DNA from: Acidobacteriaceae bacterium
GTDB taxonomy: Bacteria > Acidobacteriota > Terriglobia > Terriglobales > Acidobacteriaceae
Length of the DNA stretch: 64,000 nt
Assembly (NCBI GenBank): GCA_030038195.1
Contig: JASHPJ010000095.1
Location: forward strand, 1 to 64,000
Direction: 5' to 3'
Shown one piece after another: positions 28,682-44,713 of this stretch (the first letter of the stretch is position 1; each line of letters begins with the position of its first letter). The position numbers and the translations under genes were made by a program. The notes beneath the pieces were generated by a model. It made no database searches. It was not told where the DNA came from and saw only the letters and a program-made list of their open reading frames with translations.

Positions 28682-29262
28682 CCGCGCCGCCGCATCGCCG
28701 CGCATCAACCCGGCGTCCTTATCCCTTTTTACCGGCTTACCCCGTCCTCTGGCGCATCGGAGGCCATCCGCCATTCGCTTCGCCGTTGCATCCGTCAAAA
28801 ATATCCGGCTCGATGGTAGCGAGACCATCCCCCCTTTTCGCGCCGCTCCAGGGCCCAACCCATCAGCCGTATCAACTCGGTCATTGCGATAGAACTAAAA
28901 CGGTTATTCATAAAAGCCTGCAGCGAACTCTCCCGAACTATCCAGTCCTGATATCGATCTCAGAAATTTGTTGACAAGCGCTTCCGCAAGCGCGTATTGT
29001 CACCTCCAATCAACTCAGCGATTCAAACTTTCGATTGATCTTTTGCTCATCGGCTTGAATTACTTCCCAATCTGTGCATGATCGCGCTCCCAGTCAAGCT
29101 CGGGAGCCAGGAGAGGGAGGCACGGGCCTCCTCGCAAAAAACGAGCGATCGGAAAAAACCGGTCGGTACGGTGACCACCCGCAGTTGAGCTCTTGGCTCA
29201 AGAAGGGGTGTTATGTCTTCAAAACGCACGCAAACAAGCACATTTCAGGAGGACGAAGGGCT
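28682..29262. other. Intergenic region and long leader of the TonB-dependent receptor gene
   Basis: No gene was recognised in 581 bases. The left 290 bases show nothing definite. A promoter lies at 28971-29000 and implies a 5' leader of about 250 bases. The leader holds several short inverted repeats, such as GCTCCC...GGGAGC near 29087-29108 and GAGCTCTTGGCTC near 29187-29199. The strong ribosome site AGGAGG at 29247-29252 then serves the ATG at 29263. Confidence 0.6.
28971..29000 (+). promoter_or_regulatory. Sigma-70 promoter with palindrome in the spacer
   Basis: A consensus -35 TTGACA (28971-28976), an 18-base spacer and -10 TATTGT (28995-29000). The spacer holds a perfect inverted repeat GCGCTT-CCGC-AAGCGC (28978-28993), well placed for a repressor of the LacI type, whose half-sites often contain AGCGCT-like cores. 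It reads toward the TonB-dependent receptor gene. Confidence 0.7.
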
Positions 29263-32200
29263 ATGCTGCATACTTCAGACCCCATAAGGGAGAAGTGCGG
29301 CCATCGGAGCGCAGACTCCATCGGCCATGGAATATCCCACCCATTGGCGACGATGCATCCCATGCGGCTTTACCGCCGTCTCGCCGGCAACACCCATGCC
29401 TGCGTTGTTCTGGCATTTGCAGTGGTGGCTCTGCTCGTGGCCTTCGTGTCGAGCCCCAGGCTGCAGGCCCAGACCAGCACCATCAATGGAACCGTCGTCG
29501 ATCCCACGGGCGCCGTGGTTGTGGGAGCCCATGTGCAGATCTTCGACGCAGCCACGCACAATCTCACCCGTGAAACCAACACCGACGCAAGCGGCTCCTT
29601 CCAGTTGCTCACGCTGCCCGCCGCAACCTACAATCTCAGGATCAACGCCACGGGCATGAAAGAGCTTGACCGCAACGGCATCGTGCTCGACCAGGACCAG
29701 ACCCTGGGCCTGGGCAACCTGGCGCTGACTGTCGGCCAGTCCTCGCAAACCGTCATGGTTTCGGCTGAAACCCCCACCATCGACACCACCAGCTCGAACA
29801 ACTCCGCGGTTATCGATCAGCGCCAAGTCGTCGAGCAGCCGTTGAACGGGCGCGACTTCGAATCGCTGCTCACCACCACCGCTGGCGTGGTGACCAACAA
29901 CAACTCGCAGTTCCGCCTGGTCTTCAACCAGACCGATGACTTCTACGTCAACGGAATGCGCGGCACCGATAACAACTTCTTCCTCGACGGCATCATCAAC
30001 ACCGACATCGGCGCCAACGACGGCGAATATACCGACCTCAGCATCGATGCCGTCGGCGAGTTCAAGACGCTCACCGGCAACTACAACGCCGAGTACGGGC
30101 GCAGCCCCGGCGTCATGATCCTGGTGAATACCAAGAGCGGCGGCGAGCGCTACCACGGCACACTTTACGAGTTCGACCGCAACACCGACTTTGACGCCAA
30201 CGACTGGTTCAGCAACCACGAGGGGCTGGGCCGCGCCGTGCTGCGGTTCAACCAGTTCGGCGCCAACGTGGGCGGATACATTCCCATTCCCAAAATCTCG
30301 CCGCGCAGCCATAAACGGGCGTTCTTCTTCTTCAACTACGAGGGCACGCGCGCCAGCCGTCCCAACGGCGGCACGTATTACACCATGCCGGTTCCGGGAA
30401 TGCTCGGCCTGGATACATCCGGCAACAAGCTCACGCAGGCCGACCTGTCGCCTATGTACCGCTCCGGACCGATATGCACCTACTACAACAACGGCCCCTA
30501 CACCGGCACCTGCACTCCGATCATCGTGAACGGATACCAAAGCGATTCCCAGCCCAACGCTCCTGCGCTGCCGGCCGGCGAAGTGCAGAACGGTCAGGCC
30601 TTCGTTCCGGGAACGGTCACCTATGACGCCGCCGGCGAAGTGACCGGTGGCACGCCGGTCAAGGACAACCTCATTCCGTCGTCGCAGTTCAACTCGCAGT
30701 ACGCGGCGATGATCGACGATTTCACGCCCGGCTACAAAGGCAACTTCAACCGGCCCTTCTTCAACAACGGATACAACGACGAGGAGCAGGTCAACTTCCA
30801 GGACACGTACACGTTCTATAAGAACCAGTACGCGCTGCGCGTGGACTACAACTTCGGTCCCAAGGCCAACGCTTTCTTCCGCTACGTGGACGACCGCCAG
30901 CAGGAGCAGGAGGGATTCGGCATCTTCTCCGGTCCCAGCTTCCCGGTCACGCCACTGTTCCGCCGCAAGCCGGGCAAGAGCTGGGCATGGGAGCTGACCA
31001 ACGTGATCTCGCCCACGCTCACCAACGAGGTCTCGGTAGGCTGGCTCCATCTGACGCAGATTGTCGACATCGTACCCGGTACGCCCAAGGCCGATTACGA
31101 CAAATCGACGCAGGGATGGACATTCTCCGATCTCTATCCCTCCACCAACACCCATGACCTTGCGCCTGCGGTCACCGACGGTAGCGGATACATCAACACC
31201 GGCATCTTTCCGGCCGGATGGACCTCGACCGGCAACACGGTTGTGGCCAACGACGACGTGACCAAGGTGTGGAAAGAGCACATCTTCAAGTTCGGCATCC
31301 TGCTCGACCTGAATGAAAACGGCCAGGAGGGATCGTGGCAGGAGAACGTCTCGATGAACTTCGGGGCCAGCAATCAGAACTCGTACAACACCAACAACGG
31401 CATGGCCAACATGCTCCTCGGCAACGCCACCACCATCAGCCAGACCAACGCCTTCGTCTTTGGCGCATTTCACATGTACCAGTACGAGGGCTATGCGCAG
31501 GACACGTGGAAGGCCAAGCCGCGATTGACGCTCGACTACGGCGTGCGCTACCAGTTTCTCGGGCCGACCTATACCGCCGGCAAGTATCACCAGTACTACT
31601 TTGAGCCGGACGCCTACATTCCCGCCGATGCCGTCACCATCAACACCGCTCCCAACGTGCCGGGCGCAGCGCCCACCCAGGGCACCATCTGCGGCGCAAA
31701 CGTCAACAACGGCAACGGCTGCGGCGGCATCAACAACTACGGCAATCCGTACAACGGCATGGTCCGCGAAGGCACCAACGGCCTGCCCAGGGGCGGCATG
31801 GACTTCCGCTATAACAACGTCGGACCGCGCATCGGTTTTGCCTGGGATGTATTCGGCAACAGCAAGACCGCTATCCGCGGCGGCTATGGCGTCTTCTACG
31901 AGCGCTACCAGCAGAACACCTTCAACTTCGGCGGCATCAGCAACCCGCCCAACGTCTACACGCCCACGCTGTATGGGCAGCCGATTGCGAACATCTCCGC
32001 AGCAGAGGTGAACGGTGCTCCGCTTACCGTCTCCGGCGGCGTGCTCACCGTGCTGCGCAAAGGCATGATTCCCACTACAGCGGGATTCAACTTCGGCATC
32101 CAGCAGGCGCTGCCGTTCCACATGGCCGTCGACGCCTCGTACGTCGGCAACCAGTCACGGCACCAGATCTACCTGCACGAGCTGGAGCAGTTGCCGCTGG

Positions 32201-33096
32201 GCTACACCAATGTCATCAACCCCACCATCCTTGGCTCGGTCAACAACGTCACGCAGGCAATCCTGCCCTACCTGGGCTACAGCTCGATCATCCAGACCGA
32301 CATGGGCGCCAGCTCCGGATACAACGCGCTGCAGGTCAGAGTCATTCGCCGGTTCAGCGACTGGCTCACCTTCAACGCCGACTACACCTTCTCCAAGGCC
32401 ATCGACCTGGAGGACGTGGACGGCGACCAGAACACGCTGCCCGATTACAGCCAGCTCTCCAAGTTCTACGCTCCGGCTGGCTACGACCGGCGCAACGTCT
32501 TCAACCTGCAATGGGTCTACAACACTCCGGGACTCAAGCAGTACAACAAGCTGTTGCAGGAGGTGGGCGGCAACTGGGAGGTCGCTGGCACCGCGCAGTT
32601 CTGGAGCGGCACGCCGTGTCTCTCTGGCGCAAGCCCAAGCGACGATGCGTGCGACCTGAGCTCGACCGGCAACCTGGGCAACGGCGGCTTCGGCCACATC
32701 CGCCCCGACTACGTGGGCGGCTCGTGGGCGGAATCGCACTCCCACAACGTTCCAGCCAACCAGTTCCCCATGTGGTATAATCCAGCGGTCTTTGCCGTGC
32801 CGGCCAACGGCACCTTCGGCAACTTCCACCGCAACACCATCTACGGCCCTGGCGTGAATAGCTGGAACATCTCGCTCTACAAGAACTTCACTATCAACGA
32901 AAACACCCGCTTCCAGCTCCGCTTCGAAGGCTACAACGTCTTCAACCACACGCAGTGGGGCAATGTAAACAACAGCCTCTCCGCGCCCGACGTGGCGGGA
33001 ACCACCTACTCCGGCTCCAACGCCGGCTCCTCCGGCCAGATCACCACTGTCCGCGATCCTCGACAACTGCAACTGGGCGGCAAGTTCTACTTCTAG
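29263..33096 (+). CDS. TonB-dependent receptor with carboxypeptidase-regulatory-like N-domain
   Basis: About 1277 residues. A signal peptide (VVLAFAVVALLVAFVSSPRL, then QAQ) leads to a carboxypeptidase-regulatory-like beta-sandwich (INGTVVDPTGAVVVGAHVQI). A plug domain (QVVEQPLNGRDFESLLTTT) and a large barrel follow, ending GGKFYF. The type is characteristic of Acidobacteriota and is generally assigned to uptake of oligosaccharides or other large nutrients. The substrate is unknown. The start at 29263 is fixed by AGGAGG. ATGs 30 residues further on are alternatives nearer the signal core. It is flanked by a promoter (28971) and a strong terminator (33115), so it is monocistronic. Confidence 0.94.
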   Translation: MLHTSDPIREKCGHRSADSIGHGISHPLATMHPMRLYRRLAGNTHACVVLAFAVVALLVAFVSSPRLQAQTSTINGTVVDPTGAVVVGAHVQIFDAATHNLTRETNTDASGSFQLLTLPAATYNLRINATGMKELDRNGIVLDQDQTLGLGNLALTVGQSSQTVMVSAETPTIDTTSSNNSAVIDQRQVVEQPLNGRDFESLLTTTAGVVTNNNSQFRLVFNQTDDFYVNGMRGTDNNFFLDGIINTDIGANDGEYTDLSIDAVGEFKTLTGNYNAEYGRSPGVMILVNTKSGGERYHGTLYEFDRNTDFDANDWFSNHEGLGRAVLRFNQFGANVGGYIPIPKISPRSHKRAFFFFNYEGTRASRPNGGTYYTMPVPGMLGLDTSGNKLTQADLSPMYRSGPICTYYNNGPYTGTCTPIIVNGYQSDSQPNAPALPAGEVQNGQAFVPGTVTYDAAGEVTGGTPVKDNLIPSSQFNSQYAAMIDDFTPGYKGNFNRPFFNNGYNDEEQVNFQDTYTFYKNQYALRVDYNFGPKANAFFRYVDDRQQEQEGFGIFSGPSFPVTPLFRRKPGKSWAWELTNVISPTLTNEVSVGWLHLTQIVDIVPGTPKADYDKSTQGWTFSDLYPSTNTHDLAPAVTDGSGYINTGIFPAGWTSTGNTVVANDDVTKVWKEHIFKFGILLDLNENGQEGSWQENVSMNFGASNQNSYNTNNGMANMLLGNATTISQTNAFVFGAFHMYQYEGYAQDTWKAKPRLTLDYGVRYQFLGPTYTAGKYHQYYFEPDAYIPADAVTINTAPNVPGAAPTQGTICGANVNNGNGCGGINNYGNPYNGMVREGTNGLPRGGMDFRYNNVGPRIGFAWDVFGNSKTAIRGGYGVFYERYQQNTFNFGGISNPPNVYTPTLYGQPIANISAAEVNGAPLTVSGGVLTVLRKGMIPTTAGFNFGIQQALPFHMAVDASYVGNQSRHQIYLHELEQLPLGYTNVINPTILGSVNNVTQAILPYLGYSSIIQTDMGASSGYNALQVRVIRRFSDWLTFNADYTFSKAIDLEDVDGDQNTLPDYSQLSKFYAPAGYDRRNVFNLQWVYNTPGLKQYNKLLQEVGGNWEVAGTAQFWSGTPCLSGASPSDDACDLSSTGNLGNGGFGHIRPDYVGGSWAESHSHNVPANQFPMWYNPAVFAVPANGTFGNFHRNTIYGPGVNSWNISLYKNFTINENTRFQLRFEGYNVFNHTQWGNVNNSLSAPDVAGTTYSGSNAGSSGQITTVRDPRQLQLGGKFYF

Positions 33097-33114
33097 CCGC
33101 ACCCTGTTCAACCC

Positions 33115-33148
33115 AATTGGCCGGACTCGCTTGAGTCCGGCCAATTTT
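33115..33148 (+). terminator. Rho-independent terminator after the receptor gene
   Basis: A perfect 14-base stem AATTGGCCGGACTC / GAGTCCGGCCAATT with a GCTT loop, followed by TTTTA. It lies 19 bases after the receptor stop codon. Confidence 0.9.
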
Positions 33149-33190
33149 ATATGCACCATCCTTTGCGCGCTTCCGGCATACGATAGCATC

Positions 33191-34360
33191 ATGCGATCTT
33201 ACTGCTCCGTCCTCGCACTCGCTCTTCTGCTCACCGCTGCCCGCGGCCTCTGCGCCGGCGTAGACACAGCGCGGCAGATCTTCGAGTCTGCGGTGCAGGC
33301 CATGCAGGCCGGCAACTACGCGCAGGCTGAGAGCGGCTTCCACCAGGTGCTCCAGCTCGATCCGCACAACGTCAGCGCACTGGCCAACCTGGGCATTCTC
33401 TACGCCAAGATGCGCCGCTACATCGAGGCGATCGAAGAGTACAAAAAAGTGCTCGCCCTTGACCCGCAGCAGCCGGAGACCCAGCTCAATCTCGGCCTTG
33501 CCTATCTCAAGCAGGACGACTACGCACAGGCGCTGCCCTACTTCCGCCAGCTTCACGCGCGCGACGCCGCAAACCAGAAGGCGACCATGCTGCTGGCTAC
33601 CTGTCTTATCTCTTCGGGCCATCCCGGCGAAGCCATTGCCCTGCTCAAGCCGCTGACCGATGCAAGCACCGCAGACCCCGCGGCGCTCTACCTGCTCGGC
33701 CTGGCTTATACGCGCGCCGGCGACGCCAACCAGGCACAGCAACTCTTCACGCGCCTCTTTGCCAGCGGCACAACGCCCGCGCAAACCAACTTTCTACTGG
33801 GCAAGGCCTACGCCGACGCCACCGACTACGACAAGGCCATCCAGGCCTTTCAGTCCACGCTGCAGACCGAACCCTCCTTTCCCGGCGCCCACACCGAGCT
33901 TGGCAAAGCCTATCTCGGCGCGCATCGCGACGCCGACGCGCAGCACGAGCTGGAGCTCGCCATCCACCAGGACCCGCAGGATGGCGACGCCTGTTATTAC
34001 CTGGGCGCCATGCTGGTGCAGTCGCAGCGCTACCAGGAGGGCCTGCCTTATCTGAAAAAAGCCAACCAGATCATTCCGGACGCCTGGGCCATCTACTTTT
34101 ACATGGGCAAGACCGAGTTCCTGCTCGGCCAGCCCGCCCAGGCCGTGCCGCTGCTGCGCCGGGCGACCGAGCTGAACCCCGACGACTCCGGCTCATACTA
34201 CCTGCTTTCCAGAGCGTACAAGGCAGAGGGTCGCGCCCAGGACGCGGCCGATGCCCTCAAACGCGTGGCGGCGCTGCACGTAACATCCCTCGACGTGGAG
34301 CGGCGCGCCCTGAAAGACGCCGGCATTGTAAAAAACGCCGGCATGGACAGCGGCCGATAG
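33191..34360 (+). CDS. Exported TPR-repeat protein
   Basis: 389 residues. A signal peptide (MRSYCSVLALALLLTAARGL, cleaved near CAG) is followed by some ten TPR units with the usual W/L-G-Y-A-F-A-P spacing, for example NVSALANLGILYAKMRRYIE and PETQLNLGLAYLKQDDYA. No catalytic domain follows. TPR arrays mediate protein-protein contacts, here in the periplasm. The ATG at 33191 starts the signal peptide, and the longer frame from 33131 overlaps the terminator region. It is transcribed after the receptor gene but beyond its terminator, so it probably has its own promoter. Confidence 0.88.
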   Translation: MRSYCSVLALALLLTAARGLCAGVDTARQIFESAVQAMQAGNYAQAESGFHQVLQLDPHNVSALANLGILYAKMRRYIEAIEEYKKVLALDPQQPETQLNLGLAYLKQDDYAQALPYFRQLHARDAANQKATMLLATCLISSGHPGEAIALLKPLTDASTADPAALYLLGLAYTRAGDANQAQQLFTRLFASGTTPAQTNFLLGKAYADATDYDKAIQAFQSTLQTEPSFPGAHTELGKAYLGAHRDADAQHELELAIHQDPQDGDACYYLGAMLVQSQRYQEGLPYLKKANQIIPDAWAIYFYMGKTEFLLGQPAQAVPLLRRATELNPDDSGSYYLLSRAYKAEGRAQDAADALKRVAALHVTSLDVERRALKDAGIVKNAGMDSGR

Positions 34361-35178
34361 CGAAATTCCCCGCCCCGGCCCTGTCCCCTGGGACCTGAGT
34401 CTGAAGTTCGCATGACAAATACGCTGTTATCCTGAGCGAATTTTGGCGCGTTTTGCGCCAAAATGAGTCGAAGGTCAAAGATCCGCCGTGGCGGGACCTG
34501 CGGTTCGGGACTTCAACTTATGCTACGAACCTCTGTGACGCCACACTGGTTTCCACATACCCATTGCGCGTCAATCTTTGCGCCAGCCGCCAAAATACTT
34601 CGCCAACGATGAAACGGCCTCCGCCCGCTGGCCACTATCGAGCCAGAGGGTGATGGAATGCCGAGCCTCAGCGTCCAGATCGGTGTCCTTTATAAAACTA
34701 TTGGCCAGCTTGAGCAGGGATCCGGACCGCGCGGCACGGCTCCGCGTCCGGCCCGGCTTGGCGCTTCCGGCCGCTGGCTTTACTCCTTTTATTGCCTCTG
34801 GTTCTCCCTTCCGCTGTCCATCTGGCTCAGTACCGGCTCGATTGGACTGCTTCTCTACTGGCAGGCGCTCTCCGCAGCCGCCTGCCTGCTGGAGAAGTTC
34901 TCACTGAAACAGCGGCCGGCCAGCGCTCTCGTTGCCGCCGGTCCGACCGCGGATTATTGCCCGGCCCAAGAGGCGGCACAATGACTCCACGGCTTGAGGG
35001 CGCAGCCGCGCGCAGGCAGACGGCATCCATGGCTCCAGCGTTTCTTCACGACCCGGCTTCCTTCGGCGCCAAGCGCGTGCAAACGTATCCCCGGCCGCGC
35101 GCGCGCAAGGCCGCGGCGCGTCCGTCGCCAACAGAGCGGATGGTATACTTGCGTTCTCCAAGGGTTACGGAGAACGCC
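34361..35178. other. Long intergenic region with a family B repeat
   Basis: About 818 bases without a convincing gene. A family B repeat occupies 34426-34510. A 108-codon frame at 34658-34984 has a hydrophobic middle (SFYCLWFSLPLSIWLS) but no recognisable family and no clear ribosome site. A -10-like TATACT at 35144-35149 lies 30 bases before the proposed sigma-factor start. Confidence 0.5.
34426..34510 (+). repeat. Interspersed repeat, family B
   Basis: The order is ATCCTGAGCGAA, then a hairpin TTTTGGCGCG/CGCCAAAA, then GAGTCGAAGG and GGGACCTGCGGTTCGGG. Related copies are at 63090-63175 and, inverted, 53430-53480. Confidence 0.8.
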
Positions 35179-35763
35179 TTGCAATTTCGAGAGTTCGACG
35201 CGGGTTATATCGAAAACCTCCGTGCGGGTGATCTCCGCACGCAGGAGCATTTCGTCGCTTATTTTACCGAGCTGCTTCACCTCAAGCTGCGTTCGCGCCT
35301 GCAATCCCCACATGCCATCGAAGACGTCCGCCAGGAAACCTTTGCACGGGTCCTGGCATCGCTCCGCAAGGAAGGCGCGCTGCGCCGGCCGGAGTGCCTG
35401 GGAGCCTTCGTCAACACCGTCTGCAACAACGTTCTCTTCGAGCACTACCGCATGGCGTCGCGCAGCCAGTCGCTCGACGACGAAGGGCAGCCCGAGCTTC
35501 CGGCCGCCGACTTCGACGTGCTGGGAATGGTGGCCGCCAAGCAGTTGAGGGCCAAAGTCCGCGAAATTCTGCTCGACATGCCGGAGCGGGACCGTTCCCT
35601 GCTCAAAGCCGTCTTCCTGGACGAAAGAGACCGTGAGGAGGTCTGCCGCGAGCGCGGCGTCGACCGGGAGTACCTGCGGGTCCTGCTTCACCGCGCCAAG
35701 CAGAACTTCAAGACCGCGTACGTCAAGCGGGTGGGCGCGGGAATTTTGTCGGAAAACGCATGA
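35179..35763 (+). CDS. ECF-type RNA polymerase sigma factor
   Basis: About 194 residues. The region 2-like part reads FVAYFTELLHLKLRSRL and IEDVRQETFARVLASLRKEG. The region 4-like part reads LDMPERDRSLLKAVFLDERD, REEVCRERGVDREYLRVLLH and RAKQNF. The frame is open far upstream (34792) with ATGs at 34981 and 35140. The TTG at 35179, with ACGGAG 6 bases before it, gives the normal family N-terminus (MQFREFDAGYIENLRAGD), so I choose it. The next gene, an anti-sigma factor, overlaps or lies just beyond the stop. The target promoters are unknown, but the CHAT protease locus downstream is an obvious candidate. Confidence 0.88.
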   Translation: MQFREFDAGYIENLRAGDLRTQEHFVAYFTELLHLKLRSRLQSPHAIEDVRQETFARVLASLRKEGALRRPECLGAFVNTVCNNVLFEHYRMASRSQSLDDEGQPELPAADFDVLGMVAAKQLRAKVREILLDMPERDRSLLKAVFLDERDREEVCRERGVDREYLRVLLHRAKQNFKTAYVKRVGAGILSENA

Positions 35764-35816
35764 GAGAGGGTGAGCCAATGAGCACGCTATGTTGCGCCGA
35801 ACCCGGGGAAGACAAC

Positions 35817-36524
35817 ATGAATCACAACGAAGCTGTACAACTTATGGCTGTGGAGCGATACCTGTTGGACGAGTTGACGTCTGAGCTCCGCGACGAATTC
35901 GAGGAGCACATGTTCGATTGTGCCGAGTGCGCGCTCGATCTGCGCGCCGGCGCAACGTTTGTCCAGGAGGTGAAGCTGCAGTTGCCACAGTTGGCCGTTT
36001 CGCCGGACCCAGCCGCGCCGGGCATCGAGCCGCGTTCCGGGCAGCGGTCCGCCAGGGGCTTCTTCGACTGGTTCTCCTGGCTCCGGCCGGCTTTTGCCGT
36101 ACCTGCCTTTGCCGCGCTGCTGGCGGTCATCGCCTACCAGAACTTCGAGACCATCCCCGCCCTGCGCGCGTCGGCCGGCAGCCCGCGCCTGGCGCCCTGG
36201 GTCAGCTTCCACACCGGCACGCGCGGCGCCGCGCGTCTCGAGGTGCCCGCTGACCGCAAGCAGGGCGCGGCGGTGGTCATCGAGCTGTCCCAGGACATTC
36301 CCTATGCAAGCTACGTCTTCGAGCTGTACGATCAACACGGCAACCGGTTCTGGACGCAGACTGTCTCCGCTTCAGGCCAGGCCGGCAACGGAGCCTTTAC
36401 ACTCTTGATACCCGGCCCGGGCCTCGAAGAGGAGAGCTATACGCTGGTCATTACCGGCGCGACACCGCAAGGCGCCCGGACTGAGATCGACCGCCGCATC
36501 CTCGACGTTCATTTTGACGACTAA
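35817..36524 (+). CDS. Zinc-finger transmembrane anti-sigma factor
   Basis: 235 residues from the ATG at 35817. An N-terminal zf-HC2 motif H31-x3-C35-x2-C38 (HMFDCAEC) is typical of ZAS-type anti-sigma domains that hold an ECF sigma factor at the membrane. One transmembrane helix follows (about 91-108, PAFAVPAFAALLAVIAY). The external C-terminal domain of about 125 residues is beta-rich (AAVVIELSQDIPYASYVFEL), and its family was not recognised. In-frame ATGs at 35760 (overlapping the sigma stop as ATGA) and 35778 exist. The MNHNEAVQLM start with GGGGAAG upstream fits the family best. It pairs with the preceding sigma gene. Confidence 0.85.
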   Translation: MNHNEAVQLMAVERYLLDELTSELRDEFEEHMFDCAECALDLRAGATFVQEVKLQLPQLAVSPDPAAPGIEPRSGQRSARGFFDWFSWLRPAFAVPAFAALLAVIAYQNFETIPALRASAGSPRLAPWVSFHTGTRGAARLEVPADRKQGAAVVIELSQDIPYASYVFELYDQHGNRFWTQTVSASGQAGNGAFTLLIPGPGLEEESYTLVITGATPQGARTEIDRRILDVHFDD

Positions 36525-36529
36525 AGCAG

Positions 36530-36552
36530 GCCGGGCTAGCCTAAAGCCCGGC
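36530..36552. repeat. Short hairpin between anti-sigma gene and next gene
   Basis: GCCGGGCT and AGCCCGGC arms around 7 bases form a stable stem in the 57-base gap. There is no T-run, so it is more likely an mRNA processing or attenuation hairpin or a repeat remnant than a terminator. Confidence 0.5.
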
Positions 36553-36581
36553 GCTTCTCTCGAAAGGAAGTTGAATCTGGC

Positions 36582-37427
36582 ATGGCCCAAGAAACAATCC
36601 GCACCCACCGGTATCACGCTGAAGCCACAGTTCTCCACGGCGATCTGTACCATCCGCTGGTTCAGGAAATCAAGCCGCAAACCAACGTGAAACTCGCCGA
36701 AGGCGGCGGCTACCTGTCGGAGCACGCCGAGCCGTACCGGCTCGAAGGCGTCATCTCCTTCGAGAAAGCCTACACCCAGGTGGCCGGCAACCCTGACTCC
36801 AAGCCCGGCCATGGCTGGAGCACGCTGGCGACATCGGTCGTCGAAAAACTGAATATTCTCGAGGTGGTCACCGCCGACCGCGTCGTCGGCCAGATTGCCA
36901 CCGATCATCCGCTGGAGGGCTACGTTCCCACCGTCCACTTCCTCGGCACGCGCTTTGAGAACCTGCGCATCGCCGGCCATCCGGTCAACATCGACATTTA
37001 CCCCGACCCCGGCTTCCTGGGTGAGAGACCGGCGAACGACGGTGCCTACACGCGCCATCCCGGCCTGCTCAAGCGACTCGAAGAGCAGTTCGAACGCATC
37101 CGCAAGTCCGACAAGGTTCCCGATGCAATCGTGCAGCGCTACAATGGAGTTTCATCGACTTCGGATGGTATTGAAACGATCGAATGCTCTCTGGTCAACT
37201 AGGCGAGCGGCCCCTATCCCGGCTGCTCTTACGGGCACGTGATCGATGTACCGGGCTTCGGGAAGGTTCATCTTGCCGTCCTGCGCATCGAGCACTCGGA
37301 CTGGGTGCACAACGTCCCCAAGAAGACCCTGTTTGACCTGACCATGATTGAACTGGAGATGGGATGCATCGGGGGCGGCAAAGCGGGGATCGTGAATCCG
37401 GTTACCAACGGGTCGACCGAGCCATAG
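36582..37427 (+). pseudogene. Unrecognised protein gene interrupted by an in-frame TAG
   Basis: The frame opens at 36582 (MAQETIRTHRYHAEATVLHG) and runs to TAG at 37200-37202 after ECSLVN. It then continues in the same frame, with coherent protein-like sequence (ASGPYPGCSYGHVIDVPGFG, then HLAVLRIEHSDW and FDLTMIELEMGCIGGG), to the TAG at 37425. The total is about 281 codons with one internal amber. A single C-to-T change of a CAG codon would explain it. The two halves read as one beta-rich domain with no signal peptide. I do not recognise the family. Either the gene is newly inactivated, or it makes a 206-residue product, or the stop is read through or a sequence error. The gene sits between the anti-sigma and CHAT genes. 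Confidence 0.7.
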
Positions 37428-39979
37428 TCCTGGCCGGTGGTCCGACGCTTCTTCTGCCCAAGGAGACGCTTCGGACTACCGCACAAAAACCAGCTTCTTC
37501 CTGGTTCCGCAGCTTTTCCATTCTTCCTGCCCTTGCCTTCCTGCTGCTGATTCCTCTCCAGGATACGCGCCCATCCAACGCACAGGTTGCGTATGAACGT
37601 GCGCAGCAATTGTTTGTCCACGGCCAGCTCGAAGACTGCCAGCGCAAAGCATTTTGGGGGTACGAGCAATTTCGAACCACCAGCCTGCCGTGGGCCTCGA
37701 AATTCCGGCTTCTGGAAGCCCAGGCCATGCTCTATCGGGGTCTTTATCCAGACTCGCTCGCCGTGCTTTCTAACTTCAGTCCACCCACCGGCGACCTGGA
37801 TGAAAGTGTGCAGGAACTCACAACCGAGGCCGTCTCTCTCGCGCACCTGCACCGCATCTCTCTGGCTGCGCAAAAACTCTCTGCTGCCGATGCGTTCTGT
37901 ACAGCCAATTCCCTTGAAGCGTGTGGTGAGGTTCTAAGAGCACACGGAATTCTGGCCATGGAGCGCGGCCAGCTCTCCGATGCGCGGCAGGCATTTCTTT
38001 CCAGCCTTTCCTTCGCGCGGGCTCACCATGACCTGAACCTGGAATCGAATGCCCGATTGAACCTGGGAACCGTTGCGCTCCAGGATAATCATTATGACGA
38101 GGCTGTGGACTGGTCGCAGCAGGCATACGCTTCAAGCCTCGCACTGGGGAATCAAAACCGTGCGCAAATCGCTCTCGGCAACCTTGGCTGGGCCTACTTC
38201 GAGCTAGGCGATTCCGAGCGCGCGCTGCCTTTATTCCGCGAAGCCGAACAGCGCGCCGCAAAGCTCGGCAACATCCGCAATCAGGTCAAATGGCTCACTA
38301 CCACCGGCTACGTCTACCAGAACACCGGCGACTGGATGCGCGCGGCCCAGTTCTACGGACAGGTTCTCGACCTTGCCCGGCCCATCCATAGCCAGGAAGA
38401 TGTCATCAACTCCCTCGAAGACCTTGCCCATCTCTCCATCGCGATGGGCAATCTCGACCAAGCAAATGCGTATCTGGCCCAGCTCACGCCCCTGGTGCGC
38501 GCCACGCAGAATCGACTCGACGACCTCGACATCACCCTCGCGCAGGGCGAGATCGCCGCCGCCCGCCGGCAGGATCAGCAGGCTCAATCCATCTTCAAAT
38601 CCATTGCCGCCGATCCCGACAGCCAGACCTCCATGCGCCTGGGCGCCGAGCACCAGCTTGCCAGTCTCTACGAGCGCGAAGGCAACGCCGCCTCCGCCGA
38701 CCGCATGTACCGAACCGCGCTCACCACCTTCGAGTCGGCCCGCCAGCAGCTCAAGAAAGAAGACTCCAAGCTTCCCTTCCTGGCCAACGCCACGCCCATC
38801 TACACTGACTACATCCACTTCCTCATTCAGCAGGGCAAAGTGCGGCAGGCGCTCGACGTGGCCGATCACGGCCGCGCCCGCACGCTCGAGCAGGGGCTGG
38901 GCCTGATCTCCCGCGAGCGCACCTTTCACCCGGCTCCGCTCAACCCCGGCGGCATTGCGCGCAAGGCCGGCGCAACGCTGCTCTTCTACTGGCTGGGCCG
39001 CTCGCAATCGTACCTGTGGGCCATCACCCCCACAAAGACCGCGTTGTTTCCGCTGCCTGCGCGCAGCCAGATCGCCGCCGTCGTCCAGCGCTACCGCAAT
39101 GTGCTGCTCGGCCCCGACGGCACGCTCGAATCCTCGCAGGCTGACGGCGTCGCGCTCTATCGCACGCTGGTCGCGCCCGCCGCCGCGCTCATCCCTCCCG
39201 GCGCCAACGTGGTCATCCTCAGCGATGGCGCGCTCAGCGAGCTGAACTTTGAGACCCTCATCGTCCCCGGCCCGCATCCCCACTACTGGATCGAAGACGC
39301 CACTCTCTCTTCCGCGCCGTCGCTTTACATGCTGGCCGCGGCCAAACCCGCGCGCGACGCTGGCCGCAGGCTGCTTCTGCTGGGCAACGCCGTCTCGCCC
39401 AACCCCGACTATCCCCAACTGGCGCAGGCGCCGCTCGAAATGCAGCGCATCGAAAAGCACTTTCCCGCCAACGACGAAACCGTGCTCTCGCGCCAGCAGG
39501 CCAATCCCGCGTCGTATCTCAACAGCAGACTCGGGCAGTACTCCTACATCCACTTCGTCGCGCACGGCGTAGCCAGCCGCACCGATCCGCTCGACTCGGC
39601 CATCATCCTTTCGCCCGCCAGCGACGCAGAAGACTCCTTCAAGCTCTACGCGCGCGAAATCATCCAGCATCCCATCCATGCGCAGCTTGTCACCATCTCG
39701 TCGTGCTACGGCGGCGGCACACGCTCTTACGCAGGCGAGGGGCTGGTCGGCTTGTCATGGGCGTTTCTGCGCGCCGGCGCGCACAACGTCATCGGCGCAC
39801 TGTGGGAAGTAAGCGACGACTCCACGCCGCAGTTGATGGACACGCTGTATCAGCGGCTCGAACAGGGCGCGCCGCCCGCCGTGGCCCTGCGCCAGGCCAA
39901 GCTCACGCTGCTCCACTCCCAGGGCAGCTTCCGCAATCCGTTCTACTGGGCGCCGTTCCAGCTTTACACCGGACTGTGA
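37364..39979 (+). CDS. TPR-CHAT domain caspase-like protease
   Basis: 871 residues. A hydrophobic segment (ILPALAFLLLIPLQ, about 53-66) anchors or exports the protein. TPR units cover about 80-500 (for example ARLNLGTVALQDNHYDEAVD). A CHAT domain (about 560-871) belongs to the caspase/separase clan. Its catalytic dyad is intact: H734 in IHFVAHG and C781 in ISSCYGGGT. The ending FRNPFYWAPFQLYTG is also typical of CHAT. CHAT proteases act as regulated peptidases in bacterial signalling and cell-death or defence systems. The only ATG overlaps the interrupted gene by 64 bases and is preceded by GGAGATGGG. The partner substrate is not evident. Confidence 0.9.
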   Translation: MHRGRQSGDRESGYQRVDRAIVLAGGPTLLLPKETLRTTAQKPASSWFRSFSILPALAFLLLIPLQDTRPSNAQVAYERAQQLFVHGQLEDCQRKAFWGYEQFRTTSLPWASKFRLLEAQAMLYRGLYPDSLAVLSNFSPPTGDLDESVQELTTEAVSLAHLHRISLAAQKLSAADAFCTANSLEACGEVLRAHGILAMERGQLSDARQAFLSSLSFARAHHDLNLESNARLNLGTVALQDNHYDEAVDWSQQAYASSLALGNQNRAQIALGNLGWAYFELGDSERALPLFREAEQRAAKLGNIRNQVKWLTTTGYVYQNTGDWMRAAQFYGQVLDLARPIHSQEDVINSLEDLAHLSIAMGNLDQANAYLAQLTPLVRATQNRLDDLDITLAQGEIAAARRQDQQAQSIFKSIAADPDSQTSMRLGAEHQLASLYEREGNAASADRMYRTALTTFESARQQLKKEDSKLPFLANATPIYTDYIHFLIQQGKVRQALDVADHGRARTLEQGLGLISRERTFHPAPLNPGGIARKAGATLLFYWLGRSQSYLWAITPTKTALFPLPARSQIAAVVQRYRNVLLGPDGTLESSQADGVALYRTLVAPAAALIPPGANVVILSDGALSELNFETLIVPGPHPHYWIEDATLSSAPSLYMLAAAKPARDAGRRLLLLGNAVSPNPDYPQLAQAPLEMQRIEKHFPANDETVLSRQQANPASYLNSRLGQYSYIHFVAHGVASRTDPLDSAIILSPASDAEDSFKLYAREIIQHPIHAQLVTISSCYGGGTRSYAGEGLVGLSWAFLRAGAHNVIGALWEVSDDSTPQLMDTLYQRLEQGAPPAVALRQAKLTLLHSQGSFRNPFYWAPFQLYTGL

Positions 39980-40247
39980 CCGTAGGCACAGCAACACTCT
40001 TCGCGCAACGCACGAAGTGTAAGACCACGACTTTACTCGCACTGAAAAACCGGAGATTGTTCCACGAAAAATTGTTTTAAAAGAGCACGGCTTCAAAGCC
40101 TGCTGAAAAATGCTCAAGGGAGGCTTTGTAACAGGGCGCAGCTTCAGCCGCGCCGCATGAGCCCGGCAATCGATTGGGCTTCAACCCCTGGTAGATACTT
40201 TTGCTGCGAGAAATAACTCTCCGATACGCACAGCCGCGTAAGCTATC
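39980..40247. other. Intergenic region with REP-like short palindromes
   Basis: No gene was recognised. Several short inverted motifs of the interspersed-repeat type are present, such as CGGCTTCAAAGCC, GCGCAGCTTCAGCCGCGC and TGGGCTTCAACCCC. Convergent genes end on both sides, so a termination function is possible. No classical T-run hairpin was found. Confidence 0.5.
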
Positions 40248-41720
40248 TCACCCTGCCTCCGGCCCCGCAAACAAAAACTCCCACGAAGCATCCAGATACA
40301 GCCATCGCTGCGTGCCGAACCAGCTTGTCGGCAGCCCCGGCACATGCAGCAGCGCGTGCCCACCCGAGCACATCAATTCCGTTCCGTTCCACGCCAGGAA
40401 CGTGCGCGACACGAGGCCCACCTGCGCCGGATGCGCCACGCGCTTGAGACACACCGGGCACCGCTGCCGCTGATCGAGCAGCGCCCAGCGCATGCCGCCA
40501 AGGCAGAGCGCAAAGGCCGAGAAGAGCTGGATGTAATCCGCCGCATACGTTGTGCCGAACGACCGCCAGTAGGCCAGATCGAGCGACATGTAATACACAA
40601 TCGGCAGTAGCAGCGCGATCTTCGCAGCCAGATAGAGCCAGCGCACAACGCGGCGCGGCCACTGCGGCCGGTGCGAGCTCGGGCTGTACTCGCCCAGCGA
40701 AACCGTCGTAATGGCCGGCAGCGCCAGCAGCGCCAGAAACAGCGCAAACCGGTACAAATCCCATGGCCCCACGGACTCATCGTCCATCGAAAACCCGTTC
40801 AGATCGAGCTCCGTGTCGTTGCGTCCGTATGCGGTAATGTGCACCGAGCCTGTCCACATCTCCGCGCGCCCCGCGCGGGTAAGATGCGCCACCACACTCC
40901 CGCTCGCCTGCGCCGGCATCGCGGCCTCCGGCTCCAGCACCCACGCGTCGACGTTGCCCGGCAGCTTCCACGCGCGGCGCGCCGCCACGCCCACAATTCG
41001 CGCCTCGCGCCGGCCCACATGCAGCACCTTGCCGGCAATCTCCGGATCGGCGCCGAATGCGCGCCGCCACATCGCATCACTCACAATCGCCGCGGGCAAC
41101 GCGTCATCCGCCCCGCCATCCTCATTCTTCCACTGCGCCGGAATCCCGAGCAGCGTAAATAGATTCGGCGTAGCGTAAGCAATCTTCCACGCGCCTTTAA
41201 GCACGCCGCCGTCGAGCACGTTTTCCCGGCTCATCCAGTAAAACGCCATCTCGTCAAAGTACCGCTGCCGCCTGGCGCTCCACGCCTGAAACAGCTCGAA
41301 CGGAATCGAAGTGCCGCCTTTCGCTTCGCTCGACTTCTGGATCAGGATGAGCCCCGTTCTCGCCGGAGCCCACAACGGATTCGTCGCCGACCGCGCTTCA
41401 GGCAGCAGATGCGCCACCAGACAGCTCGCCGCCAGCACCGTCGCCATGGCCAGCAGGCACTGCCCCGCCGATCCATGCAGAGCAACCGGCCGCGCCTTTT
41501 CGCGCTGCGCATGCCGCCGTAAACACCACGCATCCTGAAACGCACCCAGGCAAAATGCTGTGGCGTACCATCCGCCGGCGCATGACCGCTCCACGTGCCA
41601 CGTCTCCGCCTGCCACTCGCGCAGCCACTCCGCACGCATGCCGGCAGGAACCAGCAGCGCCGCGCCGCGCATCAGCATCCTGCGCAGCAGCGAGAAGGCC
41701 ATCCCCACCAGGGACGTCAT
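40248..41720 (-). CDS. Membrane protein with MacB-like periplasmic domain and C-terminal Cys pairs
   Basis: 490 residues. The N-terminal 70 residues (PAGMRAEWLREWQAETWHVE) resemble the leader of acidobacterial orphan permeases. A MacB core-like extracytoplasmic region follows (WSARRQRYFDEMAFY, YATPNLFTLLGIP, DAMWRRAFGADPEIAGKVLH). Helices (FALFLALLALPAITTVSLG, LYLAAKIALLLPIVYYMSLD) come next, then a tail with CPVC and a later Cys in ELMCSGGH, suggesting a zinc ribbon. The FtsX coupling motif is missing, so it is not an ordinary transporter permease. It overlaps padR by 4 bases and is presumably controlled with it. Confidence 0.72.
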   Translation of the reverse strand: MTSLVGMAFSLLRRMLMRGAALLVPAGMRAEWLREWQAETWHVERSCAGGWYATAFCLGAFQDAWCLRRHAQREKARPVALHGSAGQCLLAMATVLAASCLVAHLLPEARSATNPLWAPARTGLILIQKSSEAKGGTSIPFELFQAWSARRQRYFDEMAFYWMSRENVLDGGVLKGAWKIAYATPNLFTLLGIPAQWKNEDGGADDALPAAIVSDAMWRRAFGADPEIAGKVLHVGRREARIVGVAARRAWKLPGNVDAWVLEPEAAMPAQASGSVVAHLTRAGRAEMWTGSVHITAYGRNDTELDLNGFSMDDESVGPWDLYRFALFLALLALPAITTVSLGEYSPSSHRPQWPRRVVRWLYLAAKIALLLPIVYYMSLDLAYWRSFGTTYAADYIQLFSAFALCLGGMRWALLDQRQRCPVCLKRVAHPAQVGLVSRTFLAWNGTELMCSGGHALLHVPGLPTSWFGTQRWLYLDASWEFLFAGPEAG

Positions 41721-42034
41721 ACCGTCTTCGCCTCCTCGGTGGGAATCAGCCGCTCCAGCAGCGGATAGCGTCTGCGCGAGGCCTCCAGCGTCGACTTCCC
41801 CGCCGCCGTCAGCTTGTAATACTTGCGCGCCGGCCTCTGCTCCGCGTCGGCAATCGACTGCTTCTCCCAGTGCGACCGGATCAGCTCGTCCCGCTCCAGC
41901 CGCCGCAGCGCCGGATAGACCGTGCCGCTGGGCAGCCCGGTCATCTCCATCACGCTGAATCCATAGATGTATCCCGCATGGATCGCCTGCAGGATCATCG
42001 CCGCCGTATGCGAAAGTTTGGGCTCCACGGCCAT
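41717..42034 (-). CDS. PadR-family transcriptional regulator
   Basis: 105 residues forming one winged helix-turn-helix: ILQAIHAGYIYGFSVMEMTG, then LPSGTVYPALRRLERDELIR and the wing RPARKYYKLTAAGKSTLE. PadR proteins are dimeric repressors released by small ligands and often control adjacent efflux or permease genes. Its start codon lies 14 bases from a symmetrical control region (42048-42093) that also covers the promoter of the divergent ABC exporter. Its stop overlaps the start of the membrane protein by 4 bases. Auto-repression and control of both operons is the natural reading. Confidence 0.93.
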   Translation of the reverse strand: MAVEPKLSHTAAMILQAIHAGYIYGFSVMEMTGLPSGTVYPALRRLERDELIRSHWEKQSIADAEQRPARKYYKLTAAGKSTLEASRRRYPLLERLIPTEEAKTV

Positions 42035-42047
42035 GCGCGCATTTTAA

Positions 42048-42093
42048 CTATGTAGTGATCTACTTGACAAGCTATATACAGAATGCTACATAG
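42048..42093 (+). promoter_or_regulatory. Divergent control region: consensus promoter inside palindromic PadR-type sites
   Basis: Rightward promoter: TTGACA (42064-42069), a 17-base spacer and TACATA (42087-42092). A perfect inverted repeat CTATGTAG (42048-42055) / CTACATAG (42086-42093) brackets it, and the second arm covers the -10. An overlapping dyad GTAG-TGAT-CTAC lies at 42052-42063. ATGTA/TACAT half-sites are typical of PadR operators. Confidence 0.75.
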
Positions 42094-42111
42094 GGCAACA
42101 GGAAGGCCTAC

Positions 42112-42885
42112 ATGCTTACCGTACAGAACCTGTTCAAAAGCTACCGCGGCATCCCCGCCGTCCAGGATGTCTCGTTCACCGTCGCGCCCGGCGAGGTCAT
42201 CGGTTTTCTGGGCCCTAACGGTGCGGGCAAATCCACCACCGTCAAGATCATCACCGGCATGCTGCACCCCAACGAGGGCTGCGTGCTCTTTGAAGGCCGC
42301 GACATCCGCGACGACATGGTCGCCTATCGCGCGGCTTTCGGCTATGTCCCCGAAGAGGCGCATCTCTATACCTATCTCTCCGGCCTCGAATATTTGCAGC
42401 TCATCGGCCGGCTGCGCGGGCTGCCCGAAGCCGTGCTCACCGCCAAGGCCACCAGCCTGTTGCGCCTGCTCCAGCTTGAATCCTGGCAGTACTCATCCAT
42501 CTCGTCTTACTCGAAAGGCATGCGCCAGCGCGTGCTCATCGCCGCTGCGCTGCTGCATGATCCACGCCTGTTCATCTTCGACGAGCCGCTCTCCGGCCTC
42601 GATGTTGCCTCCGCGCGGCTTTTCAAGGACCTGCTTGAAGTTCTCGCTGCGCAGGGCAAGGCGATTCTCTACATCTCCCACGCCCTCGAAGTCGTCGAGC
42701 AGATCTGCAACCGGGTTATCGTCATCGCCGGCGGACGCGTGCTGGCCGACGCGCCGCCTTCCGATCTGACGCAGTTCATGAGCCTGCCCAATCTCGAAAG
42801 CGTCTTCGCGCAGCTCGTCCAACAGCAGGACACCGCCGCCATCGCACACCAGATCGTCGAGGTTATGCGGATTCATCATGTCTGA
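42112..42885 (+). CDS. ABC transporter ATP-binding protein
   Basis: 257 residues with all ABC motifs: Walker A GPNGAGKST, Q-loop region YVPEEAHLY, signature SYSKGMRQR and Walker B LFIFDEPLSGLD, followed by the switch His in YISHALE. It matches the drug/ABC-2 exporter type. Its end overlaps the start of the membrane gene at 42878 by 8 bases, which marks an ATPase-permease pair. Transcription starts from the promoter at 42064-42092 and is probably repressed by the divergent PadR. Confidence 0.94.
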   Translation: MLTVQNLFKSYRGIPAVQDVSFTVAPGEVIGFLGPNGAGKSTTVKIITGMLHPNEGCVLFEGRDIRDDMVAYRAAFGYVPEEAHLYTYLSGLEYLQLIGRLRGLPEAVLTAKATSLLRLLQLESWQYSSISSYSKGMRQRVLIAAALLHDPRLFIFDEPLSGLDVASARLFKDLLEVLAAQGKAILYISHALEVVEQICNRVIVIAGGRVLADAPPSDLTQFMSLPNLESVFAQLVQQQDTAAIAHQIVEVMRIHHV

Positions 42886-44713
42886 AGCCTTTCAACACCT
42901 TTTAACCATGTCCGGACCCGAAGCCCTCTCGCTCAACGAGCAGGCCGCGCTCGGCGAAGCGCACCCACGCGAGCGCAGCCAGTTCACGCACCTTGTCCGA
43001 CACTATCTCGAGCGCTTCTTCAATCACGAAACCGCAGCGCCCGACGGCAGCGCCAAGGCGCGCCTCATTCTCGCCGCATTCGCTGCCGGCATTCCGGGGC
43101 TCATGGTCGCCGTCTATCTCTGGCCCGTCTACCATCCTTTTCGCGGATGGCCGCCCAACCATCCCTCCAACGGCGGACCACCGCCCTACTGGCTCCAGGT
43201 CAATCATCATCTCTTCTTCGTGCTCTACTCCTTCGTGGTCATGGGCATCGTCACCGTCTTCGAGTGGGACCTGTTCTTCCCCGACCTGCTCGATATCTCC
43301 GTTCTCGGCACACTGCCCATACCCACGCGCCGGCTATTCCGCGCCCGCGTCGCCGCCATCGCCATCTTCATCGCCGGCTTCCTCTTCGATTCCAACATCC
43401 TCGCTCCACTGATTCTTCCTGAGTCCATCGAGCCACCCAGCGTCGCGCGCCTCATCGCCGGCCACGTGCTCGCTGCCTTCGGCGCGGGGCTCTTTGCCGC
43501 GCTCTTCGTGGTTGCCTTTCAATCGACTCTGCTTGCGCTCTTCGGCGAAAGGCTCTTTCGCAAGCTCTCGCTCTTTGTGCAGGGCCTGACGATCTCCGCT
43601 CTGCTCATCGCGCTGCTGCTCTTTCCTGTGCTCTCGGGCGCAGTGCCTGCCCTGCTGCAATCGGGCAGCGTCTGCGCGCGCTGGTTTCCACCCTTCTGGT
43701 TCCTCGGTATCTACCAGCGATTGCTCGAAGGCCCGTCAGCCTTGCCTATCTACACCCAACTCGCGCAGATGGCATGGCCTGCCACACTCGCCGCCGCTGC
43801 GCTCATGCTCATCGCCTACCCGCTCGCGTACCTGCGCCGCGTCCGGTGTCTCATCGAAGGCTCCGTGACGCGCAAGGCGCGCAATCCGCTCGCGCGCGCC
43901 GCGCATCCGCTCATTCATCTCTCCATCGCGCGCGCGCCCATCCGGCGCGCCGTCTTTCACTTCATCGGCCAGACCCTGCTGCGCGTCCCACGCTACCGCA
44001 TCTACCTCGTTCTCTACTGCGGCGTGGGCCTCTCGGTTGTCACTGCCAGCGTGCTACGTTTCAACGTTATGCACAACCAGCTTCACATCGCCATCTCCGC
44101 CGACGGCCTGCGTTCCGCCATCGCCATCATTGCCTTCTGGATCGTCGCCGGCCTCCGCTCAGCTTTCATCTCGCCCGGCAACGAACGCGGAAGCTGGGCC
44201 TTCCGCATCGCGCACGGCAACCCTCCCGCCTTCCCAATCGCTCTCGACCGCCTGCAAGCCGCCAAGACCTGGGTCATGGTCTGCGCGCTCGCCGTCACAT
44301 GCGCCGCGCTGCTCGCATCGCGCGCCATCGCTCCACCGGAACTGCTTAACGCCGCAGCCACCGCTGCGCAGACCCTTACAGTACTCGCACTCTGCCTGCT
44401 GCTCACCGACGCTTTCTTCCTCCATGTCATCACCGTTCCCTTCACCGGCACGCCCTCCAGCGAAGAGCCCAACCTCGCCTTCACGCTGCTCAGGTACTTC
44501 ACCTTCTTTCCCGTCGTGGTCTGGCTCCCGATCGCCGTCGAGCCCTGGATCGAGAGCAAACTCTGGCACTTTGCCACTGCGGTCATCGCCATCATCGCAG
44601 CCCATATCGGATTGCGCTTCTGTCACCACGCCCTCGTCGCCGCACACTGCCAGCAGCTTCCACTCGAAGAAGACGAAGAAGACTTCCCCATGCGCCTGGG
44701 CCTGCGCTACTGA
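42878..44713 (+). CDS. ABC-2-type transporter membrane subunit
   Basis: 611 residues with about ten or more hydrophobic helices, including LILAAFAAGIPGLMVAVYLW, FVLYSFVVMGIVTVF, AAIAIFIAGFLFDSNIL and ALLIALLLFPVLSGAVPALL. It is larger than usual ABC-2 permeases and has a long central loop with many basic residues. The 8-base overlap with the ATPase gene makes it the cognate membrane partner. No substrate is evident. Export of toxic compounds or antibiotics would fit PadR control and is inference. Confidence 0.8.
   Translation: MSEAFQHLLTMSGPEALSLNEQAALGEAHPRERSQFTHLVRHYLERFFNHETAAPDGSAKARLILAAFAAGIPGLMVAVYLWPVYHPFRGWPPNHPSNGGPPPYWLQVNHHLFFVLYSFVVMGIVTVFEWDLFFPDLLDISVLGTLPIPTRRLFRARVAAIAIFIAGFLFDSNILAPLILPESIEPPSVARLIAGHVLAAFGAGLFAALFVVAFQSTLLALFGERLFRKLSLFVQGLTISALLIALLLFPVLSGAVPALLQSGSVCARWFPPFWFLGIYQRLLEGPSALPIYTQLAQMAWPATLAAAALMLIAYPLAYLRRVRCLIEGSVTRKARNPLARAAHPLIHLSIARAPIRRAVFHFIGQTLLRVPRYRIYLVLYCGVGLSVVTASVLRFNVMHNQLHIAISADGLRSAIAIIAFWIVAGLRSAFISPGNERGSWAFRIAHGNPPAFPIALDRLQAAKTWVMVCALAVTCAALLASRAIAPPELLNAAATAAQTLTVLALCLLLTDAFFLHVITVPFTGTPSSEEPNLAFTLLRYFTFFPVVVWLPIAVEPWIESKLWHFATAVIAIIAAHIGLRFCHHALVAAHCQQLPLEEDEEDFPMRLGLRY

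Follow-up and report, generated by a model that had tools for sequence, protein, structure and literature searches.

A conserved sigma factor, anti-sigma factor and CHAT protease gene unit in Acidobacteriota and its possible working as an envelope-spanning switch

On the evidence of comparative sequence analysis, four adjoining genes in the genome of a soil bacterium of the Acidobacteriaceae, encoding an ECF sigma factor, a zf-HC2 membrane anti-sigma factor, a protein that we call Mid and a TPR-CHAT protein, are a real, conserved signaling unit, beyond what chance would give. We propose that the unit is an envelope-spanning sigma switch in which a CHAT protease, predicted to be periplasmic, would act on the anti-sigma factor, and we give this reading a probability of about 0.5. 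Caspases and separase have bacterial relatives in the CHAT proteases, and the location of such an enzyme beside a sigma factor inhibitor suggests that a relative of the animal death protease relays an envelope signal to gene expression.

A four-gene unit conserved across Acidobacteriota

The window, which is the whole 64-kb stretch of DNA that was analyzed, carries the locus on its plus strand. An earlier note on this DNA had described four neighboring genes on one strand, and all four are present between 35179 and 39979 in the order that it gave: ECF sigma factor, anti-sigma factor, interrupted mid and TPR-CHAT (Table 1).

Table 1. Features of the locus, with positions in the window
Feature	Positions	Strand	Basis or detail
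Extended −10 housekeeping-type promoter element, TGGTATACT	35141..35149	+	38 nt upstream of sigma start codon
ECF sigma factor, 194 aa, TTG start	35179..35763	+	TIGR02937, 46.1 bits (cutoff, 42.9)
Single-pass anti-sigma factor: N-terminal zf-HC2 (HxxxCxxC), one TM segment, C-terminal beta-rich domain predicted to be periplasmic	35817..36524	+	PF13490; TM prediction
mid, choice-of-anchor P-like, no signal peptide, 206 + 74 aa	36582..37427	+	One frame with a single in-frame TAG
In-frame TAG in mid, unique to this genome	37200..37202	+	Sole mid match with a stop
TPR-CHAT caspase-like protease, 871 aa	37364..39979	+	PF12770, E = 1.4e-50, plus TPRs
Parts of the CHAT protein: signal-anchor-like segment, ~aa 51-70; TPR solenoid, ~aa 73-463; CHAT, aa 594-868; dyad, H734/C781			

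The assignments made in the note for three of the genes were borne out. The TTG-start sigma factor falls in the ECF class by its TIGR02937 match, which lies above the cutoff; Pfam sigma regions 2 and 4 gave weak matches. Its relatives have TTG or GTG at the corresponding place, and its orthologs in the nearer module loci are 53 to 87% identical to it. The transmembrane anti-sigma factor matches zf-HC2 (PF13490) with a score of 23.3 against a cutoff of 22.2. It has the features of the ZAS-type class, an HxxxCxxC finger ahead of a single TM segment, as do its orthologs, every one of which retains the HxxxCxxC motif; an upstream ATG at 35760 offers a possible alternative start. The 871-residue TPR-CHAT protein was verified with its dyad and its N-terminal hydrophobic segment. 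By sequence it is a CHAT protease (clan CD), having a PF12770 domain with a His-Cys dyad, and both dyad residues are kept in every full-length module relative. An AF2 model was confident for the TPR part and not for the CHAT part.

The third gene had been described as interrupted and of no recognized family. The interruption was confirmed, and the gene is stop-free in every relative, which the note had missed; the statement about its family did not stand. Intact Mid relatives match the choice-of-anchor P model NF040603 (11 of 14 members; best E value, 4e-10), and several of them (G155, G084, G066 and G257) exceed its cutoff, while the window protein scored 21.4 bits against a cutoff of 27. Sec signal peptides are present in the readable ordinary choice-of-anchor P members of acidobacteria. 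In contrast, no signal peptide or TM segment was found in the Mid of any relative examined, and Mid has a C-terminal half of its own. These matches place Mid beside the choice-of-anchor P family, as a relative that lacks the signal peptide, and it defines a signal-less protein family that was always accompanied by its CHAT in the genomes that we sampled. No mid was found on plasmids or viral contigs. A sequence search for solved structural relatives of Mid returned none, and an AF2 model built from three sequences had a pLDDT of 28, too low to be of use.

We looked across the phylum for all mid homologs of the window kind and found 31, every one of them adjoining a CHAT gene. The full order of sigma, anti-sigma, mid and CHAT occurs in 25 of these 31 loci; the cultured relative Terracidiphilus gabretensis (L024) has an intact module, and the recurrence in Acidobacteriota that the earlier note had proposed to look for is thus present. 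Gene order is kept across families of Acidobacteriota, an anti-sigma gene is present in the window and in most module loci, and the distance matrices of the four module proteins correlate (r = 0.84 to 0.93). Since mid adjoins CHAT in 31 of 31 cases while the flanking genes of module loci are hardly common to them, the module is not a chance arrangement, contrary to the suggestion that the genes might be chance neighbors.

The description of the locus as a signaling or cell-fate module was upheld in its first half, in that the coupling of a CHAT protein to a membrane sigma switch recurs in the phylum, even as a fusion. A role in cell fate or defense found no such backing: defense families gave no specific match (just a generic TPR model and one weak match), and no CRISPR-type direct repeats were found in the 24 kb around the locus (26000 to 50000). 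Rfam gave no match in 30000 to 44000.

Predicted topology of the CHAT proteins and their fusion to anti-sigma factors

The module CHAT is predicted from its N terminus to be exported and to face the periplasmic domain of the anti-sigma factor. A lipobox is found at the CHAT N terminus in most relatives (about 17 loci), and a signal-anchor-like segment is predicted instead in the window's clade. This extracytoplasmic location had been missed by the earlier note. An export-type N-terminal segment was found in 15 of 17 CHATs with an anti-sigma gene upstream versus 1 of 20 sigma-only CHATs, which have an ECF gene and no anti-sigma gene and look cytoplasmic from their sequences. The sigma-only CHATs form one clade in the tree, so this contrast rests on few independent changes, and a Fisher value of 2e-7, which treats them as many independent cases, is overstated. 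TPR-CHAT proteins occur in 175 of 250 genomes of the class. Most exported CHATs of the class have no anti-sigma gene immediately upstream, so an exported CHAT alone does not imply a sigma circuit.

Four CHATs first classed as sigma-only proved to be anti-sigma fusions. Encoded directly after an ECF sigma gene, each has one or more HxxxCxxC zinc fingers and a TM segment followed by TPR-CHAT, and the anti-sigma profile matches them across finger and TM segment at 6.5e-8 to 1.7e-5. One of the four lies at C152 of the window's own genome. Apart from these fusions, a zinc finger was found in none of the 86 CHATs examined.

An xRG motif after the anti-sigma TM segment is striking within the module. 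We rejected it as a CHAT-specific cleavage site because it is as frequent in anti-sigma factors not directly beside a CHAT (12/16 versus 13/20); Craspase sites are unconserved in any case.

A proposed sigma switch and its alternatives

In the zf-HC2 anti-sigma family, the zinc-finger part holds the sigma factor at the membrane. In the switch that we propose, the sigma factor would accordingly be held at the inner membrane by this part of the single-pass anti-sigma factor. The TPR-CHAT protein would be exported and anchored on the far side of this membrane: in most relatives it would be a lipoprotein there, and in the window's clade its signal-anchor-like segment would tether it. The long TPR solenoid would probably bind a protein or peptide, and this signal from the envelope would activate CHAT, which would then act on, and presumably cleave, the periplasmic part of the anti-sigma factor in the manner of a site-1 protease. 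Ordinary intramembrane and cytoplasmic proteolysis, known to release sigma factors in other systems, would then free the sigma factor. Mid would be a dedicated partner of the module CHAT clade, and the local copy of the switch may be impaired because mid is truncated in this genome, provided that the TAG is a true nonsense mutation and no error of the assembly.

The earlier note had suggested that the released sigma factor might induce the protease. We found no conserved ECF-type autoregulatory promoter before the operon; the conserved element there is instead a housekeeping-type extended −10. The pattern TGnTAnnnT stands at about the same position in 8 of 14 loci (window counted) versus a background of 0.6%, and TGNTATACT occurs once in the 64-kb window, at the operon promoter element. 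Self-induction is therefore unsupported. The housekeeping-type promoter would keep the operon expressed, so that proteolysis would throw the switch. The promoter also bears on an alternative in which the anti-sigma factor is inactivated in an ordinary way, by another site-1 protease or by conformational sensing, and the operon carries CHAT and mid as effector genes, the CHAT protein degrading envelope or foreign proteins. A single operon with mostly short intergenic gaps would suit this alternative, and exported CHATs without an adjacent anti-sigma gene are common enough in the class to imply independent roles. We nevertheless consider it unlikely, given the housekeeping-type element, the lack of any internal ECF-type promoter that stands out in the operon, and the fusions, since an anti-sigma factor and a CHAT joined in one protein are easier to reconcile with a regulator than with an effector under regulation.

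The envelope switch leaves one observation unexplained, which is that mid is tied more tightly to CHAT than the anti-sigma gene is. The pairing of mid and CHAT persists at L039, L040, L207 and L209, where the anti-sigma or sigma gene is absent or lies elsewhere, or where mid has diverged. This most inseparable of pairs (31/31) would be expected if Mid were cleaved by CHAT or activated it, with the sigma and anti-sigma factors as a reporting arm. Such an arrangement would be nearer to Craspase; in type III-E, the CHAT substrate gene is likewise a neighbor, and the cleavage site is unconserved between orthologs. However, Mid has no export signal, so that the membrane would separate it from a CHAT exported as predicted, which is a difficulty for the envelope switch as well. 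Other ECF-anti-sigma-CHAT operons and the fusions lack mid, and no relationship of Mid to a known CHAT substrate was found in any library searched. We regard a substrate or activator role for Mid as improbable, somewhat more so than an effector role for CHAT.

That these are chance neighbors or a functionless, decaying locus in this genome, as the stop codon in mid might suggest, is very improbable, and for the entire module it is already contradicted, given the order conserved across families without common flanks, the low Ka/Ks values against nearest relatives (sigma, ~0.07; anti-sigma, 0.23 to 0.26; CHAT, 0.16 to 0.31) and codons past the mid TAG that show no less constraint than is seen between intact relatives.

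Comparison with known systems

In its proposed working the module has something of both Craspase/CASP-sigma and ECF54, but judged by its gene content it is a member of neither. In type III-E systems, a CHAT protease cleaves an inhibitor of an ECF sigma factor, and proteolysis relieves the inhibition (PMC10028731). As in CASP/Craspase (Csx29, Csx30 and CASP-sigma/RpoE), the genes of a TPR-CHAT protein, an ECF-type sigma factor and an inhibitor of the latter stand together. Here, however, a zf-HC2 membrane anti-sigma factor takes the inhibitor's place, CHAT is predicted to be exported, CRISPR-type repeats are lacking at the window locus, and Mid matches no family known from type III-E. In the comparison of their flanking genes, no gRAMP/Cas7-11-type gene recurred among the module loci. 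The relatives of known structure matched by the window CHAT include Csx29 (E = 0.012); PDB 8rot and separase are closer to it by sequence than Csx29 is.

ECF54 sigma factors have a CHAT, subtilase or carboxypeptidase in the neighborhood and no anti-sigma factor, and proteolytic control has been proposed (PMC8999054). The window module shares the CHAT neighbor; its membrane anti-sigma factor and predicted CHAT export set it apart. The cytoplasmic sigma-only CHAT clade of Acidobacteriota (e.g., L080 and L086) is more similar to ECF54. ECF sigma genes also lie beside caspase-domain and TPR genes in neighborhoods with TRADD-N/EACC2 (PMC8195603), but the caspase families differ, and the pair of membrane anti-sigma factor and CHAT is not described in the part of that paper considered here.

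The proposed logic of envelope protease, single-pass anti-sigma factor and ECF sigma factor resembles that of DegS/RseA/RpoE. That system combines the same three elements and works by regulated intramembrane proteolysis. Logic of this type is also cited in PMC10028731. Here a caspase-like CHAT that senses through its TPRs, encoded in the operon of the anti-sigma factor or fused to it, would stand in place of a trypsin-like PDZ protease.

A fuller claim, which in our estimate falls a little short of an even chance, is that the membrane anti-sigma factor has a dedicated site-1 protease in the periplasmic CHAT, which a signal activates. The module would then be a CRISPR-free, envelope-facing counterpart of Craspase-sigma that also exists in a one-protein version, and Mid would be a new accessory component. 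Should control of anti-sigma factors prove to be the task of these exported CHATs, a testable role would be found for a large class of caspase-like orphans. A sigma-releasing CHAT circuit would then exist outside CRISPR, in a family that allows separate, fused and cytoplasmic arrangements to be compared.

Conservation of the unit and sigma-CHAT linkage

We searched 396 Acidobacteriota genomes with the protein encoded by mid, the third gene of the module, and found it in 19; a profile built from intact mids matched in 26 genomes, a few of these matches being ordinary choice-of-anchor P proteins. Named contigs (Terracidiphilus gabretensis among them) contributed another three loci and a class-wide CHAT sample three more, giving 31 mid loci in that phylum including the window's, near-duplicates (L033/L034, L035/L036, L039/L040 and L082/L084) being counted. 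A CHAT gene adjoined mid in all 31, and the order sigma-anti-sigma-mid-CHAT was complete in 25. The four genes are a conserved unit, and the module proposed in the earlier note recurs among flanks with hardly anything in common: shared flanking genes were sought around the module loci, and no family outside the unit occurred in more than three. Pairwise distances of the four proteins paralleled each other (r 0.84-0.93, with no species-tree control), and all 20 module CHATs sampled formed one fully supported clade in a CHAT tree. The genome carrying the window is 4.17 Mb, and its closest module relatives are Acidobacteriaceae.

At class level, 175 of 250 genomes carry CHAT genes. Of 86 sampled CHAT genes coding for more than 600 aa, many directly follow an ECF sigma gene or a pair of ECF sigma and anti-sigma genes. 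Sigma-70 region 2 is matched 17 times in the window's genome, yet both CHATs of that genome, on contigs C24 (the window) and C152, adjoin an ECF gene. Sigma-CHAT linkage is therefore a general theme in the phylum, within which the four-gene module is one clade, marked by mid.

Features of the window and of related loci
Feature	Position or locus	Strand	Remark
OMP_b-brl_4/TonB-plug large outer-membrane protein, then TPR protein	29074-34360		directly upstream of module; absent next to most other module loci
ECF sigma factor	35179-35763	+	TTG start; TIGR02937 above cut-off
zf-HC2 anti-sigma	35817-36524	+	one predicted TM
G+C-rich inverted repeat, GCCGGGCT...AGCCCGGC	36528-36552		between anti-sigma and mid; no T run; not evident among relatives
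mid	36582-37427	+	single in-frame TAG, 37200-37202
TPR-CHAT protein	37364-39979	+	dyad His and Cys
Protein with weak MacB-like periplasmic core domain	40248-41720	-	56% identical copy near module in L023, none in other loci
Anti-sigma-CHAT fusion, second CHAT of window genome	C152:55517-59122		1202 aa; two HxxxCxxC fingers, TM, TPRs, CHAT
ECF sigma gene, then this fusion gene	L043:2949-7123		contig C152
mid-CHAT-anti order	L039/L040		no sigma within 18 kb
Incomplete order	L204, L208		contig ends
mid and CHAT	L207		neither anti-sigma nor sigma found
sigma-anti-CHAT	L209		mid divergent
Sigma-only CHAT clade, predicted cytoplasmic	L080, L086, L088, L092, L110, L116-L118, L122, L129-L132, L138, L141, L142

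Expression and the interrupted mid gene

An extended -10 element of housekeeping type, TGGTATACT, lies 38 nt upstream of the window's sigma start codon. Such an element sits at about the same position in 8 of 14 loci, against a background of 0.6%, and the remaining loci retain related -10-like boxes. Intergenic gaps within the unit are mostly short. Together these features point to constitutive expression of the operon and disfavor the earlier idea that the sigma factor induces its own protease. Every relative examined has a TTG or GTG start at the sigma gene, and a TTGCAATTT-like start (window 35179-35190) is conserved in many module loci.

The CHAT His and Cys and the interruption of mid, both reported in the earlier note, were confirmed. 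The dyad is conserved across all full-length module relatives; in-frame stops, sought in all mid homologues, were found only in the window copy. Because constraint on the codons past the TAG matches that seen between intact relatives, and the window's sigma, anti-sigma and CHAT genes are under purifying selection, the stop either arose recently, is an artefact of assembly, or is read through. Sec signals are carried by the ordinary acidobacterial choice-of-anchor P proteins readable in the sample and absent from mids, which are predicted on this ground to be cytoplasmic.

Topology, mechanism and known systems

By the simple hydropathy and motif rules applied to all signal peptides and TMs here, rather than by dedicated predictors, module CHATs have export-type N termini. 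About 17 loci show a lipobox; the hydrophobic segment that the earlier note saw in the window lacks the lipobox Cys and is signal-anchor-like, as in the window's nearest kin. No module CHAT has Asp at +2, a sorting rule not established in this phylum. In the wider sample, an export-type segment was called in 15 of 17 CHATs following an anti-sigma gene versus 1 of 20 following only a sigma gene. Four of those 20, among them the second CHAT of the window genome, are fusions: a single protein combines one or two HxxxCxxC fingers with a TM, TPRs and CHAT. The other 16 lack the segment and form one clade in the CHAT tree, so the contrast is clean yet reflects few independent changes. A CHAT that has a membrane anti-sigma, whether in trans or in cis, is thus predicted to be across the membrane from the zinc finger, and one that has none is predicted to be cytoplasmic. 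Most zf-HC2 anti-sigmas sampled (L056-L143), CHAT-adjacent or not, carry an xRG motif some 20-50 aa past the TM.

Beyond what was observed directly (the conserved unit and dyad, the anti-sigma-CHAT fusion and the housekeeping-type promoter element), we infer that the module's CHAT, predicted to be exported, may act at the periplasmic side of the anti-sigma factor, and that sigma would be freed through this action.

We found no literature on ECF/anti-sigma/exported-CHAT modules, which may have been described earlier in the main ECF classification. Among tested systems, type III-E CASP comes closest: there a TPR-CHAT protein cleaves Csx30, which inhibits an ECF sigma factor (PMC10028731). Unlike the window module, with its membrane anti-sigma, that system is RNA-guided and has none. 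Craspase cleavage sites are not conserved among orthologues (PMC11106740). For ECF54, which has no anti-sigma, control by adjacent CHAT or other proteases has been proposed (PMC8999054); the sigma-only CHAT clade, predicted to be cytoplasmic, resembles this arrangement but is found in Acidobacteriota.
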